Source: Fidelibacterota bacterium (lineage in GTDB: Bacteria; Fidelibacterota; UBA8477). Taken from it: a stretch of 47,646 bases of DNA. Shown piece by piece: positions 22,425 to 33,526 of the stretch. The stretch is from the NCBI GenBank assembly GCA_021734045.1, contig JAIPJR010000006.1, positions 1 through 47,646 on the forward strand, read 5' to 3'. A program made the translations under genes and the position numbers. Every line of letters starts with the position of its first letter. Within the stretch, counting starts at the first letter, position 1. A model generated the notes under the pieces. The model was not told the DNA's origin. It did not search any database and was given only the letters and a program-made list of their open reading frames with translations.

Positions 22425-23846
22425 TTAAAAATCCGCCAGCGTCAGGCGTTTCAGACGATAAAACGCCAACCAGTAACTGCGCAGGTTCTGGATATAGCTT
22501 TTGCGGGCAGCGTCTTTTTCCTGCTGGGCTCGCAGCAGGTTGGTGATGTCCACCCGTCCAATCAGGTAACGGTTTTTGGTTACCTCAAACTGCCGCGCAC
22601 CGATGGTATCCGACTTGGCAGATAGTAGCAACTGCTGCTGTAATTGACGGAACTGACTCACCTGGTAGTACACATCTTCCTCAAACTGGCGGCTCTCCAT
22701 TTCCAGATTGGTGCGGGCTCGCTCACGGCTGGTCAGAGCGGCGTACTCACGCGCTTTCCCCTGACCCCAGTTGAACAACGGAACCTCAAGTCCCACCGAA
22801 AACCGCTGTGTATCAAAGGGATCGTTGTAAACATCATCAATGGTTTCGCCGCTTTTGTTATAACCCCAACTGGCGGAAATATTGGCGTCCAGCCAGCGAT
22901 TGGATTTCGCCTGCTGCAGCGCCCGCTCGGCTTGCAAAAGTTGAAGTTCATAGCCGGGCAACACACTGCTGTTGGACTTGGCCAGGTCCGTCAACCGGTC
23001 AATATTCAAATCCCGGTGCGCCATGGCGGGCGGATCTTCCAGCACCAGCTCTTTATCCAACGGTAAATCCAGTATAATCCGCAAATTTCGCAAGGCCCGA
23101 TCCAGCTCCAGCAGGGAATTGCTCAGGTTCGCTTCGGCGTTCATCCGAGCCAGCTCGGATTGAAGCAGGTCGTTTTCAGCAATTTTTCCCACCGAATAGC
23201 GCCCTTTTGAAATGGTGTATATGGAGTCATTCACCGCCAGATTCAGCCGCGCCAGATTCACATTCATCTGGGCGATGTAAACATCAAAAAAGCGCTGCAC
23301 CGCCGTGATATTCACATCCGCCAGCGCCTCCTGATATTGCAATTCCGCCAGGTGAAACTGCATGTTTTCAATTCGCCGGTTCCAGCGCTGGGTATTGAAC
23401 TGAAACAAGGGCTGGGAAATACCCACGATGAGTGGTACTGACTGCCAGTAAAGCCCGGGCGAGGTGATCCGATTCAAACCACTGGAGAGATACAACTCAC
23501 CGCCGGTGATGGCGATTTTTTGATTCAATGTCAGATTCAATCGGCTGAAGGTTTGTGACTGGGCGCGAAAAAGCACCGAACCATCGTCCTGATCCACCGA
23601 TGAAATCGCCCGGACCAATCCCGGTAGGTCCGCCGTTAAAGCCAACTGGGGCAAATAATCAGCCTCACTGGCTTTGTGATTCCAGGAAGCAGCGTTGAAG
23701 GTTTGACGGGCCATTTTTGCTTCCGGTCCCTGTTCCTGCGCCAGATCAATGCAATTATCCAGGGAAAGCACCATAGGCTGTGCCATAAGTGTCCAGGTCC
23801 ACGCTATCAGGGTACTGATGATGATATATTTCAAAATCTTTTGCAT
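22425..23846 (-). CDS. TolC-family outer-membrane protein of the ATPase-less efflux cluster
   Basis: A 473-residue exported protein (signal ending LMAQ) with the two-repeat OEP layout: LSLDNCIDLAQEQGPEAKMA at the start, KGRYSVGKIAENDLL in the first half and KNRYLIGRVDITNLL in the second, with long coiled-coil helices between. It forms the outer-membrane channel for the adaptor and permease encoded just upstream. Its ATG overlaps the permease stop by one base (TAATG), so they are co-translated. It is the last gene of the minus-strand run that begins at 33526. Compared with the TolC at 14205 it is diverged and belongs to a separate pump. Confidence 0.92.
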   Translation of the reverse strand: MQKILKYIIISTLIAWTWTLMAQPMVLSLDNCIDLAQEQGPEAKMARQTFNAASWNHKASEADYLPQLALTADLPGLVRAISSVDQDDGSVLFRAQSQTFSRLNLTLNQKIAITGGELYLSSGLNRITSPGLYWQSVPLIVGISQPLFQFNTQRWNRRIENMQFHLAELQYQEALADVNITAVQRFFDVYIAQMNVNLARLNLAVNDSIYTISKGRYSVGKIAENDLLQSELARMNAEANLSNSLLELDRALRNLRIILDLPLDKELVLEDPPAMAHRDLNIDRLTDLAKSNSSVLPGYELQLLQAERALQQAKSNRWLDANISASWGYNKSGETIDDVYNDPFDTQRFSVGLEVPLFNWGQGKAREYAALTSRERARTNLEMESRQFEEDVYYQVSQFRQLQQQLLLSAKSDTIGARQFEVTKNRYLIGRVDITNLLRAQQEKDAARKSYIQNLRSYWLAFYRLKRLTLADF

Positions 23847-25177
23847 TACTCATACCTCAATGAAACAATGGGATCCTGTTCGGCGGCACGCTTGGCGGGG
23901 AAGCTGCCAAACGCCAGACCCACGCTGAAGGAGACCACAAATGAAACCACAATTGAAATACCCGAAACAATTGTCGTGATGTGGGTGAACCGTTCGATAC
24001 CCCAGCTCATGGCCATTCCCAGAAAAACTCCCAGAATGCCACCCACCAGACTGATTGTGATGGCTTCCAAAATGAATTGCAGAATAATGTCCCGCTTGGT
24101 GGCGCCCAGTGCCAGCCGGATACCGATTTCCCGGATCCGCTCCATCACCGATGCCAACATGATATTCATAATGCCGATTCCACCGACCACCAGTGAGATG
24201 GAGGCAATAGCTCCCAACACGATATTAAATATGTTTTTCGTGCGCTGCTCCTGCTCCAATAATTGCTCCGGGATGATGATTTCGTAATCCACCACGTCAT
24301 TATGCCGCCGCTGCAACATCCGGCTCATTACCTCCGACACAGATTGGATGTAATCCGAATCTTCCACGCGCACCACCATGCGGTCCAGCTGATGATAATT
24401 ACCCCTCTCCTGTACGGCACCATTCTCCTGGCGCGCGAGTTCCATGATGTCCTGCTTGGTCACCAGTGCACGGTTTTTGTAACGCAGCAACATGGTTCGT
24501 ACCGGTGTATAAATGTCCATGTTATAATCGCGGATACCCAGATGCTGGATATTCTGCTCCGTGATTTTCCGCTCCTTCAAAACACCCACAACCGTGAGCC
24601 ACAGATTACCGGTCTTAATCCGCCGACCCAGTGGCGGCTCGCGGGGGAAAAATTTGGTGGCAATGCCGTGCCCGATAATGCAGACCGGCATGGCATCCAC
24701 TAATTGGGTGTCGTTAAACCACTCTCCGTCCGCCAATTCAAATTCGCTGGTGTCAAAATAATATTCATTTACCCCCACCAGCTTGCCGGTGCGTTTCAAT
24801 CCGGAGCGGACCACCATGGTCTCCATGACAATTTCCGGACTCACGAAGGACACCCTGGGAATAGTCGAGGCAATGGCTGTCGCATCCGCCAGTGACAACC
24901 CGGGTGTAAACCGTTTTTCTCTGGTTTTATCATCACCCAAGCCTTCCTCAACCCGCCCCTCTTCCTGTTTCACTACCGGCTGAACAATGATATTGTTTAC
25001 GCCCAGAAGCTGCATTTGCGACAAAATCTCCTGACGTGCGCCATTCCCGATCGCCAACATGGCTATGACGGATGCCACACCAAAAATGATTCCCAGGGAT
25101 GTGAGAAATGCCCGGGTTTTATTCTGAAATATCGCTTCCACAGCGATGAGAAAATTGAAGGCGATTTTGCGAATCAT
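23846..25177 (-). CDS. MacB-like ABC permease without a dedicated ATPase gene
   Basis: A MacB/FtsX permease of about 443 residues: first helix in KTRAFLTSLGIIFGVASVIAML, a periplasmic core domain (~45-300), then three helices with SVMERIREIGIRLALGATKRDI between them and AAEQDPIVSLRYE at the end. ATG at 25177 gives the usual family start; a TTG at 25201 directly after the adaptor stop (TGATTG) would add eight residues and imply tight coupling. No ATPase of the MacB/LolD class lies in this cluster. The nearest is at 16922-17677 on the other strand; the nearest ATPases in the same operon are the peptide-importer type at 26487-29032. Confidence 0.9.
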   Translation of the reverse strand: MIRKIAFNFLIAVEAIFQNKTRAFLTSLGIIFGVASVIAMLAIGNGARQEILSQMQLLGVNNIIVQPVVKQEEGRVEEGLGDDKTREKRFTPGLSLADATAIASTIPRVSFVSPEIVMETMVVRSGLKRTGKLVGVNEYYFDTSEFELADGEWFNDTQLVDAMPVCIIGHGIATKFFPREPPLGRRIKTGNLWLTVVGVLKERKITEQNIQHLGIRDYNMDIYTPVRTMLLRYKNRALVTKQDIMELARQENGAVQERGNYHQLDRMVVRVEDSDYIQSVSEVMSRMLQRRHNDVVDYEIIIPEQLLEQEQRTKNIFNIVLGAIASISLVVGGIGIMNIMLASVMERIREIGIRLALGATKRDIILQFILEAITISLVGGILGVFLGMAMSWGIERFTHITTIVSGISIVVSFVVSFSVGLAFGSFPAKRAAEQDPIVSLRYE

Positions 25178-25201
25178 TTTCCGGTGTTCCGGTACGTTCA
25201 A

Positions 25202-26455
25202 TCAGTTGGTCGGCAGCGGGACAAAGGTCATTTCATCATGATTGGCGGGCACGGATAACATGAGTTCGTCCGTGGGTTCAATACCGGAAATGATAACAGC
25301 ATTATCCTCATTGATGAGCCCCACTTCAACCTGCTGCTTCACCCAGCCACCCCCATTATGGCGATAGACAAAACTCAGTGAATCCTGGGCATGCAGGCAC
25401 TCCAGCGGCACGTGTAGTACATTGTCTTCACTGGCCACGATAATCGTGTTTGAGGTGGTCATGGCCGGCCGCAGGGTGGAATCGGCGTGATCAATTTCAA
25501 TCCGGACCTCAAAGACTTTGGAGTCGGAGTTGGGACGCTGCTCACCGATATTGGCCACGGATGTGACCCGGCCGGTGAGCTTTTTATTCGGATCAGCATC
25601 CAGACCGATTTCCACCGGCTGACCCTTTTTAATCTTTTGAATGTCCACTTCATTCACATAGGTCACCGATTCCATGACAGACAAGTCCGGCAACGTTGCC
25701 ACCGTGGGCCGCCAAGCGGAGACCTGTGATCCTTCGGTGATTTTGGTACCGTCCCACTCCCGGACATAAATCACCATCCCATTTTCCGGGGCATAAATGG
25801 TGAACTGCTTCTCCAATTCCAGCAGGTCTCGTAACTCGTTTTTGCGCTTGGAAAGTTCCGCCTCCACCTCCCGCATCTTGGCTTCAGATTGGCGAACTTT
25901 GGTCACATAGTTTTCCTGGGCTTGCTTCAGGCTCCGGCGCGCCTTGTCCAGATCAATTTCCGCCTGCCGAACGATGGAGGGTGCCTCAAACTTGGACTGC
26001 TCCATGTAGAGCCGCCGTTCCTCCAGTGCATAGGTCAGGTTAATCAGGTCATTCCGGGCATTGGCCAGAGACAGCGTGCAGTCCAACTGAGCCTGTTCGA
26101 ATTGTGATTCGGCTTTGTCAATGGCTAACTGGGATTCTTCAATCTTGCTGCGCAGCTCTGATTGATCCAGCTCTGCCACGAAATCGCCCGAATCCACCTC
26201 TGTTCCTTCGGGAATCAGCTTTAAAATCTTCATGTTATAAATGCGTAAACGCCGGGCGTTGGTTGGTCCTTGAATGTCGATGGAATTTTTCGCCTGAAGT
26301 TCACCAGCCGTTGTGACCGTTACCTGAAACGGACCTACCGATGGCGTGACAACAATATTTTTCACCTGGGTATCATCTGATGAGTTGAAATACCAGGCAC
26401 TGAATAGGAGTCCCGCCACGATGAGTGCGGTGATAATAAGTTGCCGTTTTGTCAT
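25202..26455 (-). CDS. HlyD-family periplasmic adaptor
   Basis: A 417-residue membrane fusion protein with an N-terminal anchor (LIITALIVAGLLFSAWYF), the first lipoyl half (about 50-100, ending VDSGDFVAELDQ), a long helical hairpin (~100-215; one arm is rich in Glu, Arg and Lys with heptad spacing), the second lipoyl half (IYAPENGMVIYV) and barrel domains. It belongs to the adaptor class used with MacB-like permeases. The gap to the preceding OppF-type gene is only 31 bases and it is followed immediately by the permease, so peptide importer and this pump appear to share one transcript. The cargo is unknown. Confidence 0.9.
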   Translation of the reverse strand: MTKRQLIITALIVAGLLFSAWYFNSSDDTQVKNIVVTPSVGPFQVTVTTAGELQAKNSIDIQGPTNARRLRIYNMKILKLIPEGTEVDSGDFVAELDQSELRSKIEESQLAIDKAESQFEQAQLDCTLSLANARNDLINLTYALEERRLYMEQSKFEAPSIVRQAEIDLDKARRSLKQAQENYVTKVRQSEAKMREVEAELSKRKNELRDLLELEKQFTIYAPENGMVIYVREWDGTKITEGSQVSAWRPTVATLPDLSVMESVTYVNEVDIQKIKKGQPVEIGLDADPNKKLTGRVTSVANIGEQRPNSDSKVFEVRIEIDHADSTLRPAMTTSNTIIVASEDNVLHVPLECLHAQDSLSFVYRHNGGGWVKQQVEVGLINEDNAVIISGIEPTDELMLSVPANHDEMTFVPLPTN

Positions 26456-26486: not shown

Positions 26487-27533
26487 TCATCCTGCAGCTT
26501 TTTCCTTTACAATGGGACAGGCCACCCAATGTTCCGGAGCATGTTCTTCCAATGCGGGGATGTCCTCTGCGCAGGATTTCTCTGCCAGGGGACAACGGGT
26601 TCTGAAACCACAGCCGGAAGGTTTGTTCAGCGGAGTCGGCACATCGCCCTCCAGGACAATGCGGCTTTCGCGCTGACGATGGGGATCGGGGCGCGGGACG
26701 GCTGAGAGCAGGGCTTTACTATAAGGATGACGGGGATCGTAATACACCGTGGAACTTTCACCAAACTCCACAATATTGCCCAGATACATCACCGCGACAC
26801 GGTCCGCGATGTGCTCCACCACCGACAGATCATGGGCGATGAACAGGTAGGACATACCAAACTCTTCCTGTAGATCCATCATCAGGTTAATCACCTGCGC
26901 CTGAATAGAGACATCCAACGCCGAAACCGGCTCGTCACAGATAATCAGATCCGGATTCGTGGCCAAAGCCCGGGCAATACCCACACGCTGGCGCTGACCA
27001 CCGGAAAATTCGTGGGGATAACGATAAGCCTGTTCCGGTTGTAGCCCCACCTTGTCCAGCAACCAGCCGACCCGGTCCTTCATTTCCGAATCGTTCATCT
27101 TCGTATGGAGCTGTAGGGGCTCTGAAATGATCTGCGCCACCGTCATCCGGGGGTTTAATGACGCAAAAGGATCCTGGAAGATCATTTGGACTTTGGACCG
27201 GTATTTCCGCAATTCCCGGGGCTTTAAGCGGGCAAAATCCACGGATTTACCCTTGAACTGATAGGTGATGCTACCACCAATTTCCACTTCGGGATAGAGT
27301 TGGCGCAAAATTGCCACCAGCGCCCGGCCGACGGTGGTTTTGCCGCAACCCGATTCGCCCACCAGACCGATGGTCTCTTTACGCTTGATGGAAAAGGAGA
27401 TGCCGTCCACCGCTTTAACCGTGGCTACACGGCGGGACAAAACACCGCCAAACAGGGGGAAGTGGACTTTTAGATTTTGGACATCAACCAATGTTTGATT
27501 ATCGGACATGGCTACTTTTTCTTGTTCATTCAT
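26487..27533 (-). CDS. Peptide ABC transporter ATPase, OppF/DppF type
   Basis: A 348-residue ATPase of the oligopeptide/dipeptide group. Walker A is GESGCGKTT, the Q-loop [12 protein letters not shown], the signature FSGGQRQR, Walker [13 protein letters not shown], the H-loop FIAHDLSV. The C-terminal oligo_HPY region carries the Cys pattern [14 protein letters not shown] and a later Cys, which in relatives can hold an iron-sulfur cluster. Length and layout are entirely ordinary, in contrast to its partner encoded upstream. Its ATG overlaps the partner's stop (ATGA-type, four bases), so the two ATPases are made together and should form the NBD heterodimer of the importer. An internal ATG at 27509 is an alternative start. 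Confidence 0.95.
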
Positions 27534-29032
27534 TGATCATCAACGCTGACCGGGGATTTTTGCTCTGCAACCATTTCATCGATGACCAGATGACAGCGTA
27601 CAGAATGTCCCGGGGTCACCTCCACCAGATCAGGATCCACCGTATCGCATTTATCAATCTTCACATCACAGCGGGTGCAGAATTTACACCCTTCCGGCAG
27701 ATTCAGGATATTGGGCACCATGCCCCGAATGGCTTCCAGACGGGCTTTTTTCTGCAACTCCGGTCGCGGAATAGAGCCCAGCAGTCCTTTGGTGTAAGGA
27801 TGGAGCGGGTTATCAAAAAGCTCTTTCACTTCCGCTACTTCCTGGATTTTTCCGCCGTACATGACGATGACCCGCTCACATGTCTCGGCAATGACCGCCA
27901 GGTCATGGGTAATGAGGACGATGGCCGCGTCTTCCCGCTGGTCTTTGATGTCTTTCATCAATTCCAGAATCTGGGCCTGAATCGTCACATCCAACGCAGT
28001 CGTTGGTTCGTCGGCAATGAGCAGGGATGGTTTTTTCGCCAATGCCATGGCAATCATCACCCGCTGGCGCATCCCGCCGGAGAATTGGTGCGGGTAATCC
28101 TTCAAGCGGGTTTCCGGCGAGGGAATGCCTACCTGATCCAGGAGTTTGATACCCTGTCGCTGCAAGTCCACATATTCTTCGTGGTAATCCTCAGAGATTA
28201 ATTTATCCAGCCCCACCATGAGATAACCCAAAACAAGCGGCAGCGCGGCACCCCAGATGGCTTGTGAAATCAATTGGGTGATTTGAAAACTCCAACCGGC
28301 ACCCAGTTGACCGAAAAACATAAACAGGACGGCCACGATGGCGGATGTTCGCACCTTATTGACCCAGCGGGTGTTCCGAAAGCTGGCGGCCAGATCGATG
28401 ATGCGATCTTTTACCATTTCGCCGAATGATTTGGGCTTAATGGCTTCCACGATCTGCATCCCGATGGTGTACACCGGATTCAGGGAGGTCATGGGTTCCT
28501 GGAAAATCATGGCAATTTCGCTGCCCCTGATCTGACGCATACGGGTGTACATTTTTTCCCGGAACGTGCGCTCGTGCCGCTTGCGGGGTGAATTGAAAAA
28601 TAGATACCAGGTCATGCCCGTCATGAGAATCATGCTGATGAGGAATGGTATAAAACCGGGAATCGGCAGCATCAGGTGGAGGATAAACCAGGCCAACATA
28701 AAGAGAAACGCAATACCGGTACGCTTCGACACATCCAGCTTGTTGAAAAAGCGGTACTGCGGGACCGCCTTGATGCGCTTCAGCTCGTCACCATTGAAAA
28801 TATTTTCACCGTTGAAGGTGATTTCGCCATCCGTCACCTCGCCCGGTGGATTAGGTATGAGCTGAATGAGAGACAAGAGCGACACGGACTTCCCTGAGCC
28901 AGATTCACCCACCACACCCAGGATCTCACCTTTATAGATGTCGAAATCTACGCCATCAACCGCCTTCGCGGTCTGACCGCCGATGTTGAAATAGGTCTTA
29001 AGCCCTTTGATTTCGAATAATTTTTCCCGCAT
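27530..29032 (-). CDS. Peptide ABC transporter ATPase, OppD/DppD type, with two membrane-hairpin insertions in the NBD
   Basis: This 500-residue ATPase has every OppD landmark: Walker A GESGSGKS (42-49), Q-loop [12 protein letters not shown] (176-187), signature FSGGMRQR (317-324), Walker [13 protein letters not shown] (337-348), H-loop LITHDLAV (373-380) and the C-terminal Cys cluster ([14 protein letters not shown]). It is ~160 residues too long. Extra sequence at about 88-168, between Walker A and Q-loop, has two hydrophobic helices (about 105-122 and 127-147). Extra sequence at about 201-286, between Q-loop and signature, has two more (about 229-247 and 253-276). Each pair would leave and return to the cytoplasm, so the NBD could stay folded. 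ATG at 29032 overlaps the permease stop by one base. The upstream-extended frame to 29191 is the permease gene's shadow. I know of no such layout in Opp/Dpp/Yej ATPases. Confidence 0.93.
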
Positions 29033-30120
29033 CAGCGCAACCTTGAATACACCCGTGGATCGAAAGCTTCCCGGATGGCTTCCCCAATAAACACAATTAA
29101 GAGCAATGTGGTGAACAGTGCACCCAGCGGCGCCAGCACCATCCACCATTTCACCATATTCTGGAGCCCCACGGAGACCATCTGACCCCAACTGGGCGTC
29201 GGTGGTGGCAGACCGAACCCAAGGAAGTCAAGTCCCACCAGCGAACCGATACCACCAATCACAGCAAAGGGGAAGTAGGTGATGATGGGCACCAGTGAAT
29301 TGGGTAAAATGTGCTTGAAAATGATTTTTTTATGCGATTGCCCCATGGAAATAGCCGCTGCGACGTAATCCTTCGTCTTCTCGCGGTAAAATTCAGCCCG
29401 CATGTAGTAGGTCATCCCAATCCAGCCAAAGAGGGTCAGAATCACGATAAGCAGGAAAAAGTTTGGGCGCACAATAGAGCTGATGATAATCATGACAAAC
29501 AGAAAGGGCAGGGTGGCCCAGATTTCGATGAACCGCTGGGTAATCAGGTCAAATTTCCCGCCGAAATAGCCCATCATAGCGCCAATGGAAACACCGATGA
29601 GATAGCTGGCGATGGTAAACAAAATCGCGAAGGATAGGGAAATGTTAAACCCATACATAAGCCGTGAAAATACATCCCGCCCCGTATTGTCCGTCCCAAA
29701 CCAATGCACACCGCTGGGCTCCTCATACATTTTGTTTCCCGCTGTGGTGACATCCTCAAAAGGTCCGTAAGGATAGGGTGGCATAATCACCCAGTTTCCA
29801 TTTTCCGAGCGAAATTTTTCTTTCAATTCACGATAATTCGCTTCACCCGGCACATCCTCACCAAAGGTGCTGCCGGCAATATATCCCTGAAACACCGGGA
29901 ACCAGATGTCACCCTCATATTTCACCACCAAAGCCCGGTTGTTAATCAGCAACGGCAGAAAAAACGAGATGATGTAAGCGGTAATCAGGATGATAAAGGC
30001 GTAGTATCCGCGTTTGATAGACTTGAATTTCAACCAGCGTTTTTTCAGTACCGAAAGGCTGATTTGTTGCTGGGCCGTGGCTGCCTGATCGACTGTCGCT
30101 GTATTTTCCATTGCACTCAT
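29032..30120 (-). CDS. Peptide ABC permease, YejE/OppC type
   Basis: A 362-residue inner-membrane permease. After the first helix (YYAFIILITAYIISFFLPLLI) comes a periplasmic stretch with YEGDIWFPVFQGYIAGSTFG and MPPYPYGP, which matches the YejE branch rather than classic OppC. GTDNTGRDVFSRLMYGFNISLSF begins the BPD_transp_1 domain, with five further helices and the EAA coupling loop (AAAISMGQSHKKIIFKHILPNSL). It ends REAFDPRVYSR. It overlaps the OppD-type gene by one base and follows YejB by nine bases. With YejB it makes the translocation pore for oligopeptides. Confidence 0.94.
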   Translation of the reverse strand: MSAMENTATVDQAATAQQQISLSVLKKRWLKFKSIKRGYYAFIILITAYIISFFLPLLINNRALVVKYEGDIWFPVFQGYIAGSTFGEDVPGEANYRELKEKFRSENGNWVIMPPYPYGPFEDVTTAGNKMYEEPSGVHWFGTDNTGRDVFSRLMYGFNISLSFAILFTIASYLIGVSIGAMMGYFGGKFDLITQRFIEIWATLPFLFVMIIISSIVRPNFFLLIVILTLFGWIGMTYYMRAEFYREKTKDYVAAAISMGQSHKKIIFKHILPNSLVPIITYFPFAVIGGIGSLVGLDFLGFGLPPPTPSWGQMVSVGLQNMVKWWMVLAPLGALFTTLLLIVFIGEAIREAFDPRVYSRLR

Positions 30121-30129
30121 GAATTTGAC

Positions 30130-31401
30130 TTACTTAAACCGTATCCGGGGATCCACCGTCGCCAGGGCAATATCAGACAGAATATTCCCTATCAATCTCA
30201 GCAGCACGGCGATAACCAGGAAGCCCATGACAATCGGGTAGTCCCGGTCCAACACGGCCTGATATCCCAGTTTCCCAAATCCGTCGATATTAAAAACCAA
30301 TTCAATCAAATAAGACCCGGCCAGCAGAACACCAATCACATTACCGATGTAGGAGGCGATGGGAATCACTGAGTTTCGTAAGGCGTGAATCCAGATGACC
30401 CGCTTTTCCGTTAGTCCTTTTGAAAATGCCGTCCGGATATAATCCTGAGACATATTTTCGATAATGCTGTTCTTCATCAAAACCGTGAGCGTGGCAAAAC
30501 TACCGATGGTCCAGGCAATCATGGGCAAGACGGCGTGATACAGCTGGTCCATAACCTTCCCCCACAAGGACAGGTATTCCCAGTTTTCTGACCGGAATCC
30601 ACCCAGGGGAAATACATCCCAGAAAGAGCCGCCACCCAGCAGGAGGAGCAGCACGGCACCTAACGCCCAGCCCGGTATGGAATAGGCAATAAAAACAATG
30701 ACACTTGAGAACAAATCGAAGGGCGAACCATGCCGCAATGCCTTGGCAATTCCCAGGGGAATACAGACGATGTAGCTAATAAGAAAGCCGGAAATCCCGA
30801 AGAAAATAGAAATTTTGAATCGAGGCTTCATCACATCCAGTACCGGCTGCATATAGGTGTAGGAAGTGCCTAAATCTCCTGTGAGAATGCCTGAGAGTTT
30901 GGTTTTATAAACCAGAGCACGCGCCGCGCCGTCCTCAGCAGGATCCAGCGGACGAATCAGCCAGTCTGAATTAATACTACCGTCGTCATTGTACATGACA
31001 TAGCCGTCGGCGGTTTTTTTGACCGTCACCCACTGACCGCGTCCCATGTTCTTTTCAACTTCATTCTCACCGGGCCCGAACTCCAGATTCCGTGAATCGT
31101 GTTCCCGCGGCCAAACACCCAGCCAGATGAGATAGCGCTGAATAATCGGTTTGTCAAAACCATAGAATCGCTTCAATTCTTCCATGGCTTCCGCCGGGAG
31201 CCCCGCTCCACCACCAGAAGTCATGTCGCCTGCACCAGCGCTACCCCCTTCTCCCTGTGTCATGCCCCCCATCTGAATCTGTCGAATGGTCTGCTCCAGC
31301 GGTCCGCCGGGTGCTAACTGGAGAATGATAAACACCAGAATTGTCGCCCCAAAAAAAGTGGGGATAAGCAGTAAAAGTCGTCTTAGAAAATAGGTGGCCA
31401 T
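30130..31401 (-). CDS. Peptide ABC permease, YejB/OppB type, with periplasmic insertion
   Basis: A 423-residue permease. The first helix (LLLIPTFFGATILVFIILQLAPGGP) and the Gly-rich stretch after it (residues ~42-68) fit YejB. Between GFDKPIIQRYLIWLG and GDLGTSY, where relatives go straight from one to the other, there is an extra ~70 residues (about 97-168) including QWVTVKKTADGYVMYNDDGS, probably a small beta module facing the periplasm. The membrane domain follows with six helices in total and the EAA loop (IRTAFSKGLTEKRVIWIHALRNS). It ends with TVDPRIRFK. It starts 187 bases after the binding-protein gene, across a hairpin that may attenuate transcription. Confidence 0.93.
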   Translation of the reverse strand: MATYFLRRLLLLIPTFFGATILVFIILQLAPGGPLEQTIRQIQMGGMTQGEGGSAGAGDMTSGGGAGLPAEAMEELKRFYGFDKPIIQRYLIWLGVWPREHDSRNLEFGPGENEVEKNMGRGQWVTVKKTADGYVMYNDDGSINSDWLIRPLDPAEDGAARALVYKTKLSGILTGDLGTSYTYMQPVLDVMKPRFKISIFFGISGFLISYIVCIPLGIAKALRHGSPFDLFSSVIVFIAYSIPGWALGAVLLLLLGGGSFWDVFPLGGFRSENWEYLSLWGKVMDQLYHAVLPMIAWTIGSFATLTVLMKNSIIENMSQDYIRTAFSKGLTEKRVIWIHALRNSVIPIASYIGNVIGVLLAGSYLIELVFNIDGFGKLGYQAVLDRDYPIVMGFLVIAVLLRLIGNILSDIALATVDPRIRFK

Positions 31402-31588: not shown

Positions 31589-33526
31589 TTACCAATTAAA
31601 TTTATCTGTTTTGGAAATCAGCTCTTTCCAATACTTCACTTCCAGCTCACCTTGCGGTAAGGATTTTCCCTCAGCCATAGCCTCTTTCAAGGCGGCTGCC
31701 TTGTCCGGATCAATCCACCACAGCGAGTAGATGGAGCGATAGTCACCGGTAAAGCGGCTGAACATGTATTCTGGATAGCCAAATTTATTCCAGTACAAAA
31801 GTCGCTGATAGGGCCGAAAGGTTGTCCATGCCGCCGGATGAATGTCAGAATAAATGCTATCAATCTTCCGGATAATCTTCACCCGCTCTTCCTGGGAGAA
31901 TGTCACATCATAACGATCACATAACCGGTCAATTTCCTCGTTCTTAACGCCGGAGATATTGTTGGTGTAAGTCTCGTCAGCCAATTCCGACTTCAGGGAT
32001 GTTTCCGGATTGGGGAAGACCAACCCACCCCAGCTCTGCATGTAAATGGTGAAGTCCCGTTCCATTAACTGCTTCCAGAGGGTATTCCCGTCCACGAACT
32101 TGATCTGTAAGTCAATACCATAATCTTTCAGCGTCTGCTGATAGGGCGTCACCATATATTCTACACTCTTGGGAATACCAATATCCAGCCGGAAAACCTG
32201 ACCGTCATCATTCACCAACCAGCCATCTTGGTTCCGTTTAGACCAGCCGGCTTCCGCCAGGAGTTTCTGCGCCTCTTCAGGGTTGAATTTCACATCTTCA
32301 TTGTTGGGATTGGCGTAAATGGAGCCAGAGTAGAGCGAGTTCTGCATGAGATATTCGTTATAATACATCTCCTCGTTCATCTTTTCCCGGGGCAGCAAAT
32401 AGGCAAATGCGTAGCGAATACGCCGGTCGTTAAATGGCCATTTCCGCAAATTAAACGCGAACCCGCCCGTACCGGCCGGCTTGTCTGAATAGATTTTACG
32501 CTTCTGCACCCAGCCCTTTTTCACTGCTTCAAAATCCGTGTCTTCCACCCACATTCGGGCCATGTTCACCGTGTAAAAATCCTGCTCGCCCTTCTTGAAT
32601 TTTTCAAACTCCAGAGACGGATTATCCTTCACCACGACAAACTTAATCTTGTCGAAATTTCCCGTGTACCTGTTCTCAGGTCTGTCTTTAGCCCAATAGT
32701 CCAGCCGCCGGGTTACAGTATACGAAATCTGATTTTTAATGTCTGATTCCAGCATGGTATAAGCACCGGTTCCGGGCATAATTTTATACTGATACTCTTT
32801 CAGATATTCACTACCGGTCAGGTCTTTCAAAATATGATGCGGCAGAATCGACATTGAGGCACCGAAATAGAGGAAATTCCGCCAGCTCAATTGCTTGCAC
32901 GCAACGCTGACGATGTATTTGCTCTCAGCCACAGGACGCTCAAACTTGCCGTAAACCAACTGATCCGAGGGGGACAGTATCGTTTCGTCCATGTGCAGGT
33001 CCCAAGTGGTCACCACATCCTGCGCCGTTACCGGCATGCCATCTGACCAGCGAGCGTCCGGATCAATACGGAACCAGAATTTCATTTTGTCATCAGAAAT
33101 TTTCCAATGGGAAGCCAGCCGGGGAATGAATTCCAGCGTAACCGGGTGAAGATCCACCAGGCCTTCATAAAACAGACCCGCCAGAGTGCTGTTCTCCACA
33201 TAATTGGCGTTCTGTCCTTCGGTTCGCATGGTGGCGGGAAACCGGGAAACAATCGTGGTGAGTACACCACCCTTCACTGCCCGTGAATCACCAAAATATT
33301 GAAGTTCATCCTGCGGGATTTTGTAGGTTGTAAACCCCAGATCTGATGCGATTTCATCAAATCCGTATCCGCCCTCTTCTGCAGGTGTCAGCGTATCCGG
33401 TGGTGTTATGGACTCGGCTGTTTTAATCGCCAGTGCCAAGGGTTTGTTTTTGGCACCGCTACCCCCGCAACCTACCATAAAAACCAATCCGGTAATCATC
33501 CCCAAAACCAATAATTTCCGCATCAT
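31589..33526 (-). CDS. Extracellular solute-binding lipoprotein, family 5 (peptide-binding)
   Basis: A 645-residue lipoprotein with signal GMITGLVFMVGC (lipobox VGC). The SBP_bac_5 domain is clear: LAGLFYEGLVDL, FIPRLASHWKISDDKMKFWFRI, WSDGMPVTAQDVVTTWDL, MPGTGAYTML, FNLRKWPFNDRRIRYAFAYL and the C-terminal helical part. Such proteins bind oligopeptides or similar ligands in the periplasm and hand them to the OppB/C-type permeases encoded downstream. The ligand is not readable from sequence. It is the first gene of the minus-strand run; the ~220 bases to the divergent TfoX-like gene should hold both promoters but no clear elements were recognised. Confidence 0.94.
   Translation of the reverse strand: MMRKLLVLGMITGLVFMVGCGGSGAKNKPLALAIKTAESITPPDTLTPAEEGGYGFDEIASDLGFTTYKIPQDELQYFGDSRAVKGGVLTTIVSRFPATMRTEGQNANYVENSTLAGLFYEGLVDLHPVTLEFIPRLASHWKISDDKMKFWFRIDPDARWSDGMPVTAQDVVTTWDLHMDETILSPSDQLVYGKFERPVAESKYIVSVACKQLSWRNFLYFGASMSILPHHILKDLTGSEYLKEYQYKIMPGTGAYTMLESDIKNQISYTVTRRLDYWAKDRPENRYTGNFDKIKFVVVKDNPSLEFEKFKKGEQDFYTVNMARMWVEDTDFEAVKKGWVQKRKIYSDKPAGTGGFAFNLRKWPFNDRRIRYAFAYLLPREKMNEEMYYNEYLMQNSLYSGSIYANPNNEDVKFNPEEAQKLLAEAGWSKRNQDGWLVNDDGQVFRLDIGIPKSVEYMVTPYQQTLKDYGIDLQIKFVDGNTLWKQLMERDFTIYMQSWGGLVFPNPETSLKSELADETYTNNISGVKNEEIDRLCDRYDVTFSQEERVKIIRKIDSIYSDIHPAAWTTFRPYQRLLYWNKFGYPEYMFSRFTGDYRSIYSLWWIDPDKAAALKEAMAEGKSLPQGELEVKYWKELISKTDKFNW

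Follow-up and report, generated by a model that had tools for sequence, protein, structure and literature searches.

Two predicted membrane hairpins inside the nucleotide-binding domain of a DppD/OppD-type importer ATPase from Fidelibacterota

The stretch of DNA analysed here (the window) is 47,646 nucleotides of a contig from a Fidelibacterota bacterium. It carries an operon comprising a family 5 binding protein (SBP), two BPD_transp_1 permeases (PermB and PermC) and two ABC ATPases (NBD1 and NBD2), the features of which are given in Table 1. Judged by its genes, the operon probably encodes a peptide-type ABC importer; the binding protein belongs to SBP_bac_5 and scores under every NCBIfam cut-off. 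Its lipobox is also present in many relatives, and the protein is probably membrane-anchored though the group of the organism is Gram-negative-type. Directly downstream of NBD2, at positions 22425-26455 of the minus strand, a MacA-like adaptor, a MacB-like permease and a TolC-like gene are found; the same block follows the operon in the two other genomes of the genus (G001 and G002), and none was found there in the other families examined.

Table 1. Positions in the window of the operon genes and of the inserts and predicted helices of NBD1
Feature	Position	Strand	Remarks
NBD2, OppF/DppF-type ATPase without inserts	26487..27533	-	348 aa; operon partner
NBD1, DppD/OppD-type ABC ATPase with two inserts predicted to be membrane hairpins	27530..29032	-	500 aa; PF00005 and PF08352 above cut-off
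Insert 2, residues ~200-280	28193..28435	-	81 extra residues; aligned to insert-free orthologues and E. coli DppD
Predicted transmembrane helix 4 (TM4), residues 251-278	28199..28282	-	AlphaFold2 and hydropathy
Predicted transmembrane helix 3 (TM3), residues 223-244	28301..28366	-	Followed by conserved GW[ST]F turn; AlphaFold2, hydropathy, alignment
Predicted interfacial helix of insert 2, residues 203-220	28373..28426	-	Cationic; AlphaFold2 and charge count
Cationic stalk helix, residues 149-168	28529..28588	-	Runs into native helix preceding Q-loop strand (173-176); AlphaFold2 and charge count
Insert 1, residues ~84-162	28547..28783	-	79 extra residues; aligned to insert-free orthologues and E. 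coli DppD
Predicted transmembrane helix 2, residues 127-146	28595..28654	-	AlphaFold2 and hydropathy
Predicted transmembrane helix 1 (TM1), residues 101-121	28670..28732	-	AlphaFold2 pLDDT about 95-96; hydropathy 2.2
PermC, YejE/OppC-like permease	29032..30120	-	Stop overlaps NBD1 start
PermB, YejB/OppB-like permease	30130..31401	-	
SBP, family 5 peptide-type binding protein (SBP_bac_5)	31589..33526	-	Lipobox MVGC

Translation of NBD1 starts from an ATG at 29032, and the product matches PF00005 with 91.9 bits and PF08352 with 73 bits. It contains Walker A (GESGSGKS, residues 42-49), the Q-loop residue Q178, the signature (SGGMRQR, residues 318-324), Walker B (LLIADEPT, with E342), D348 and the switch histidine H376. 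In alignments of 26 and 64 sequences, these ATPase motifs vary little or not at all. An earlier note, made from the letters of the window, had described all ATPase motifs as intact, and the translation and both alignments bear this out. The best NCBIfam scores were 328.8 bits for DppD (NF008246) and 295.2 bits for OppD (NF007010), well under the curated cut-offs of 541 bits for the DppD equivalog and 575 bits for the OppD subfamily, because the inserts split the matches into three stretches. Therefore, the protein is given a family name only and not an equivalog name. From its domains, motifs, predicted fold and operon, we concluded that NBD1 is a member of the DppD/OppD family. The cysteine region at its C-terminus (residues 449-480) has one Cys more (CKFCTRC) than that of E. 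coli DppD, and this residue is conserved in the family.

Alignment with E. coli DppD (8z1v_C) revealed an offset of 79 residues before the Q-loop and of a further 81 residues between the Q-loop and the signature, in agreement with the previous observation that each of the two spacings is about 80 residues too long. The distance from Walker A to the signature is 276 residues in NBD1 and 276, once 277, across all complete insert-bearing copies, compared with 116 in the insert-free orthologues of the same phylum (G003, G013, G057, G077, G206 and the f14/f26 group), which are 328-353 aa in length, share the operon order and are about 56-72% identical to NBD1 in the core. The inserts originally placed at 28529-28771 and 28175-28432 are thus real, while their limits were refined by the alignment to those in Table 1. 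Insert 1 is located between the beta-strand 76-80 and the Q-loop strand, just before a short native helix. Insert 2 sits in the helical subdomain and starts 4 residues after E196, which is invariant in the 64-sequence alignment and aligns with E114 of E. coli DppD. As part of the contact with the coupling helix, E114 makes a salt bridge with DppB K243 (PMC12136057), so that insert 2 begins four residues past a permease-docking residue.

Using 26 family members, AlphaFold2 gave an overall pLDDT of 71, with the inserts as the best-predicted part; using 64 sequences, the pLDDT was 85.5 and the pTM 0.74, and the inserts were mostly at 90-97. The predicted core of NBD1 was superposed on E. coli OppD (8z21_C) with a Z of 33.5 and an rmsd of 2.6 over 319 aligned residues, which is the normal OppD fold. 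The structure prediction that the earlier note had proposed as a check thus keeps the ATPase fold and yields helical hairpins with positive-inside flanks, and the ATPase fold is, as had been argued, topologically possible despite the inserts. A helix at residues 281-300 comes after predicted TM4, near the end of which there is a conserved Asp/Lys pair.

The hydropathy peaks of NBD1 are at residues 106-124, 128-146, 231-249 and 255-273. Averaged over 32 members, the four peaks reach Kyte-Doolittle values of 1.8, 2.1, 1.8 and 2.0, respectively, over 19 residues, comparable to those of the permease helices of the window on the same scale (1.75-2.7). The two hydrophobic stretches that had been noticed in each insert correspond to the peaks and to the AlphaFold2 helices. 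Only one segment above 1.6 was found in a total of 23 insert-free NBD1 proteins and none in 54 NBD2 proteins; the sister ATPase at 26487 has no peak above this threshold, as expected from the first reading. Evidence against a membrane location includes the moderate hydropathy of the inserts, the weakness of TM1 or TM3 in a few members (minimum 1.0) and the Asp/Lys pair near the end of TM4. The biological-scale sums, which are approximate, average +1.3 to +2.9 per 19-residue window, higher than those of the best permease helices and similar to those of other permease helices. As to charge, the 32 members have on average 7.2 K/R versus 2.3 D/E in residues 148-170 and 7.2 K/R versus 2.5 D/E in residues 199-229. 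The mean numbers of K/R are 5.4 and 7.2 in the flanks of hairpin 1 and 7.2 and 3.1 in those of hairpin 2, and the loops joining the paired helices are almost uncharged (0.03 and 0.12 K/R). Such a distribution is predicted to be a positive-inside pattern with both ends of each hairpin in the cytoplasm. As would be expected of an integral membrane protein with two hairpins, the 32 members and the AlphaFold2 model display an even number of membrane-length hydrophobic helices with positive-inside flanks.

The predictions suggest that the four insert helices would fit a membrane, with cytoplasmic flanks, and that the core fold is ordinary. We therefore consider it probable (about 0.7) that NBD1 is a self-anchoring integral membrane subunit in the DppD/OppD position, with two hairpins each predicted to insert into and cross the inner membrane twice and with a cytoplasmic core. 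It is unlikely that the inserted helices form instead a soluble or peripheral helical domain, such as a bundle that mediates dimerisation or a surface on which another protein docks, with their hydrophobic faces buried mutually or on the permease. The moderate hydrophobicity of some members would suit such a domain, and the AlphaFold2 confidence indicates that the helices form but says nothing on where they are; however, the 32 members have two antiparallel helix pairs, each helix being 20-28 residues long, with mostly uncharged interiors and loops and with cationic flanks, and the chance Pfam matches of the inserts, none of them significant, are largely to integral membrane families.

The double insert was detected in 44 of the 245 genomes of the phylum Candidatus Neomarinimicrobiota/Marinimicrobia (current NCBI name Fidelibacterota), belonging to 12 families and 16 genera; a 45th match in this search (E 1e-3) was a partial chance match. 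The carriers are uncultured bacteria from marine and groundwater environments. All named records with insert 2 are from this phylum, bar one titled only 'bacterium'. In a wider sample of 392 relatives, the single strong match outside the phylum came from a genome of a second small phylum (G348), and the other examined genome of that phylum (G392) also has the inserts in the same gene order (2 of 2 genomes). Retention of the insert in related genomes, which had been suggested as a test, was thus observed in 44 genomes of the phylum and 2 of another. The profiles of the two inserts match the same genomes, except for G216, in which the copy runs off the end of a contig, and no intermediate form with a single insert was seen in these profile searches. 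The insert-bearing NBD1 is always in the fixed order SBP-permease-permease-ATPase-ATPase.

In the NBD1 tree, which was built with the insert columns removed, one branch with a support of 100 parts the insert-bearing from the insert-free proteins, and likewise one branch with a support of 100 in the NBD2 tree parts the partners of the two forms. We concluded that the insert form had a single origin and was inherited together with NBD2. In the permease trees, the permeases from insert-free systems in families f26 and f14 are nested inside the insert-bearing clade; constraining the insert-bearing permeases to group together cost 141 log-likelihood units (AU p 4e-7), and one genus has both insert-bearing and insert-free forms (G185 and G186, respectively). 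Therefore, on at least two occasions the permeases have come to be combined with a different ATPase pair. In the insert-free f14/f26 operons (L117-L134), NBD2 is shorter, about 290-320 aa, and lies on its own long branch, which indicates that both ATPases and not NBD1 alone were exchanged. Experiments have shown that type I importers can exchange NBDs (PMC7658222).

At least two lineages combine permeases of the same clade with an insert-free ATPase pair; the hairpins therefore belong to the ATPase as an accessory and are not indispensable to the permease. It is thus quite improbable that they are structural parts of the permease channel, lying on PermB or PermC and required to form the path of transport or to select the substrate. 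The emergence of insert 2 beside the coupling-helix contact and the constant operon order of the insert form would be in keeping with such a role, but the permeases have the usual number of hydrophobic segments and no signal of permease co-adaptation was found at the clade-conserved sites: in the swapped lineages, 5/201 and 11/201 sites of PermB and 6/198 and 11/198 sites of PermC were changed, no excess over the control lineage (13/223 and 7/192). The pairing with insert-free ATPases and the lack of extra changes at conserved sites also leave the packing of the hairpins on the permease, which the earlier note had anticipated, unsupported. Of the membrane-embedded importer NBD that it had put forward, the embedding, although predicted, is supported by conservation, by the AlphaFold2 hairpins and by the charged flanks, while the packing is not.

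The inserts are 25-89% identical to those of NBD1 in the window and their length is kept. The sites conserved in at least 90% of the sequences include R104, F111, W115, G126, F145, S148, P149 and Y162 in insert 1, and R228 or so, Q242, G246, W247, F249, G261 and P265 in insert 2. The dN/dS of the inserts is 0.03-0.22 in the close pairs where it was computable, with dS near saturation in several of these; it is higher than that of the core yet clearly purifying, and the inserts are under purifying selection. Although the source genomes are metagenome-assembled, this selection and the identical length and position of the double insert, in open frames without stops, in more than 40 independent assemblies leave a vanishingly small chance of an assembly artefact, frameshift or pseudogene, the first of which had been named as an outcome that would overturn the claim.

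For a self-anchoring NBD1, the model suggests the following arrangement. Each insert would form a helical hairpin that passes twice through the inner membrane and returns to the cytoplasm, leaving the ATPase core complete. Hairpin 1 would be borne on the long cationic stalk helix leading to the Q-loop strand in the RecA-like lobe, and hairpin 2 would grow from the helical lobe, four residues past the homologue of the residue holding the coupling helix. From this topology we infer that the hairpins tether NBD1 to the bilayer beside its permease. Since one hairpin is attached to each lobe, it is conceivable that they also link the rotation of the lobes when ATP binds to the membrane-embedded part. 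In Dpp, the inward- and outward-facing states differ by a turn of the helical lobe of about 20 degrees (PMC12136057), and a bundle of both hairpins could restrain or transmit this rotation. We regard it as possible, but rather doubtful, that both hairpins make up one four-helix bundle bridging the RecA-like and helical lobes, by which NBD1 would be mechanically coupled to the bilayer and the permease while being swappable for a soluble ATPase; ATP-driven lobe rotation would then directly move membrane helices, or the membrane would restrain the lobes.

Importer NBDs are regarded as soluble motors that touch the membrane only via the coupling helices of the permeases, and to our knowledge the ATPase subunit of peptide importers is purely water-soluble in all well-studied relatives. 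NBD1 has in common with the DppD/OppD proteins of solved importers (E. coli DppBCDF 8z1v-8z1y and OppBCDF 8z21, M. tuberculosis OppD 8j5q) the core fold (Z 31-33.5, about 320 residues), the ATPase motifs, the C-terminal oligo_HPY region with cysteines and the operon make-up; its two inserts, with four predicted membrane helices, are absent from these structures. ABC half-transporters and fused exporters also have an ATPase and membrane helices on one chain (the helices being predicted in NBD1), but their membrane domain is fused to the N- or C-terminal end of the NBD, whereas the helices of NBD1 interrupt the NBD between Walker A and the signature and the permeases are separate. Large insertions between these motifs occur in the SMC/Rad50 and UvrA ABC ATPases, which are non-transporters, and consist of coiled coils or of domains that bind DNA or protein rather than of hydrophobic hairpins. 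The Mollicutes OppD (NCBIfam NF043079, 561 positions) is, like NBD1, long, with extra length before the signature; residues 291-494 of NBD1 match its model positions 345-545, and the two proteins are not closely related. None of the literature searched describes membrane hairpins within the NBD of an importer, which is no proof of absence. What appears to be new in NBD1 is thus the presence of two predicted membrane hairpins inside the NBD of a known family. If this is true, membrane insertions can be accommodated by the ABC ATPase fold at two sites, one next to the coupling-helix contact and the other just ahead of the Q-loop strand, and the related permeases with insert-free NBDs provide a natural control for the role of a membrane-anchored motor.

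With regard to the source of the inserts, no Pfam match above cut-off was obtained (best E 0.0034 and 0.0051, from single members) and PDB sequences gave E 0.15 or no match; a borrowed known membrane domain thus found no support in these sequence searches. Duplication of one hairpin into two was rejected, the comparison of the two insert profiles giving a probability of 0.9%. Only five OppD-like matches, all distant, were found on viral contigs.

A few operons deviate in detail. An apparent PermB-PermC fusion in G071 was a run of N between contig parts. In G218 (L080, 745-2691), the binding-protein gene is in two consecutive frames (496 + 152 aa), likely due to a stop or an assembly error. In G164 (L071, 6800-8560), two extra ORFs of 432 and 172 aa lie between PermC and NBD1 in the operon direction, the latter ending in a secretion-sorting-like tail; an operon interruption of such size was seen only in this genome.
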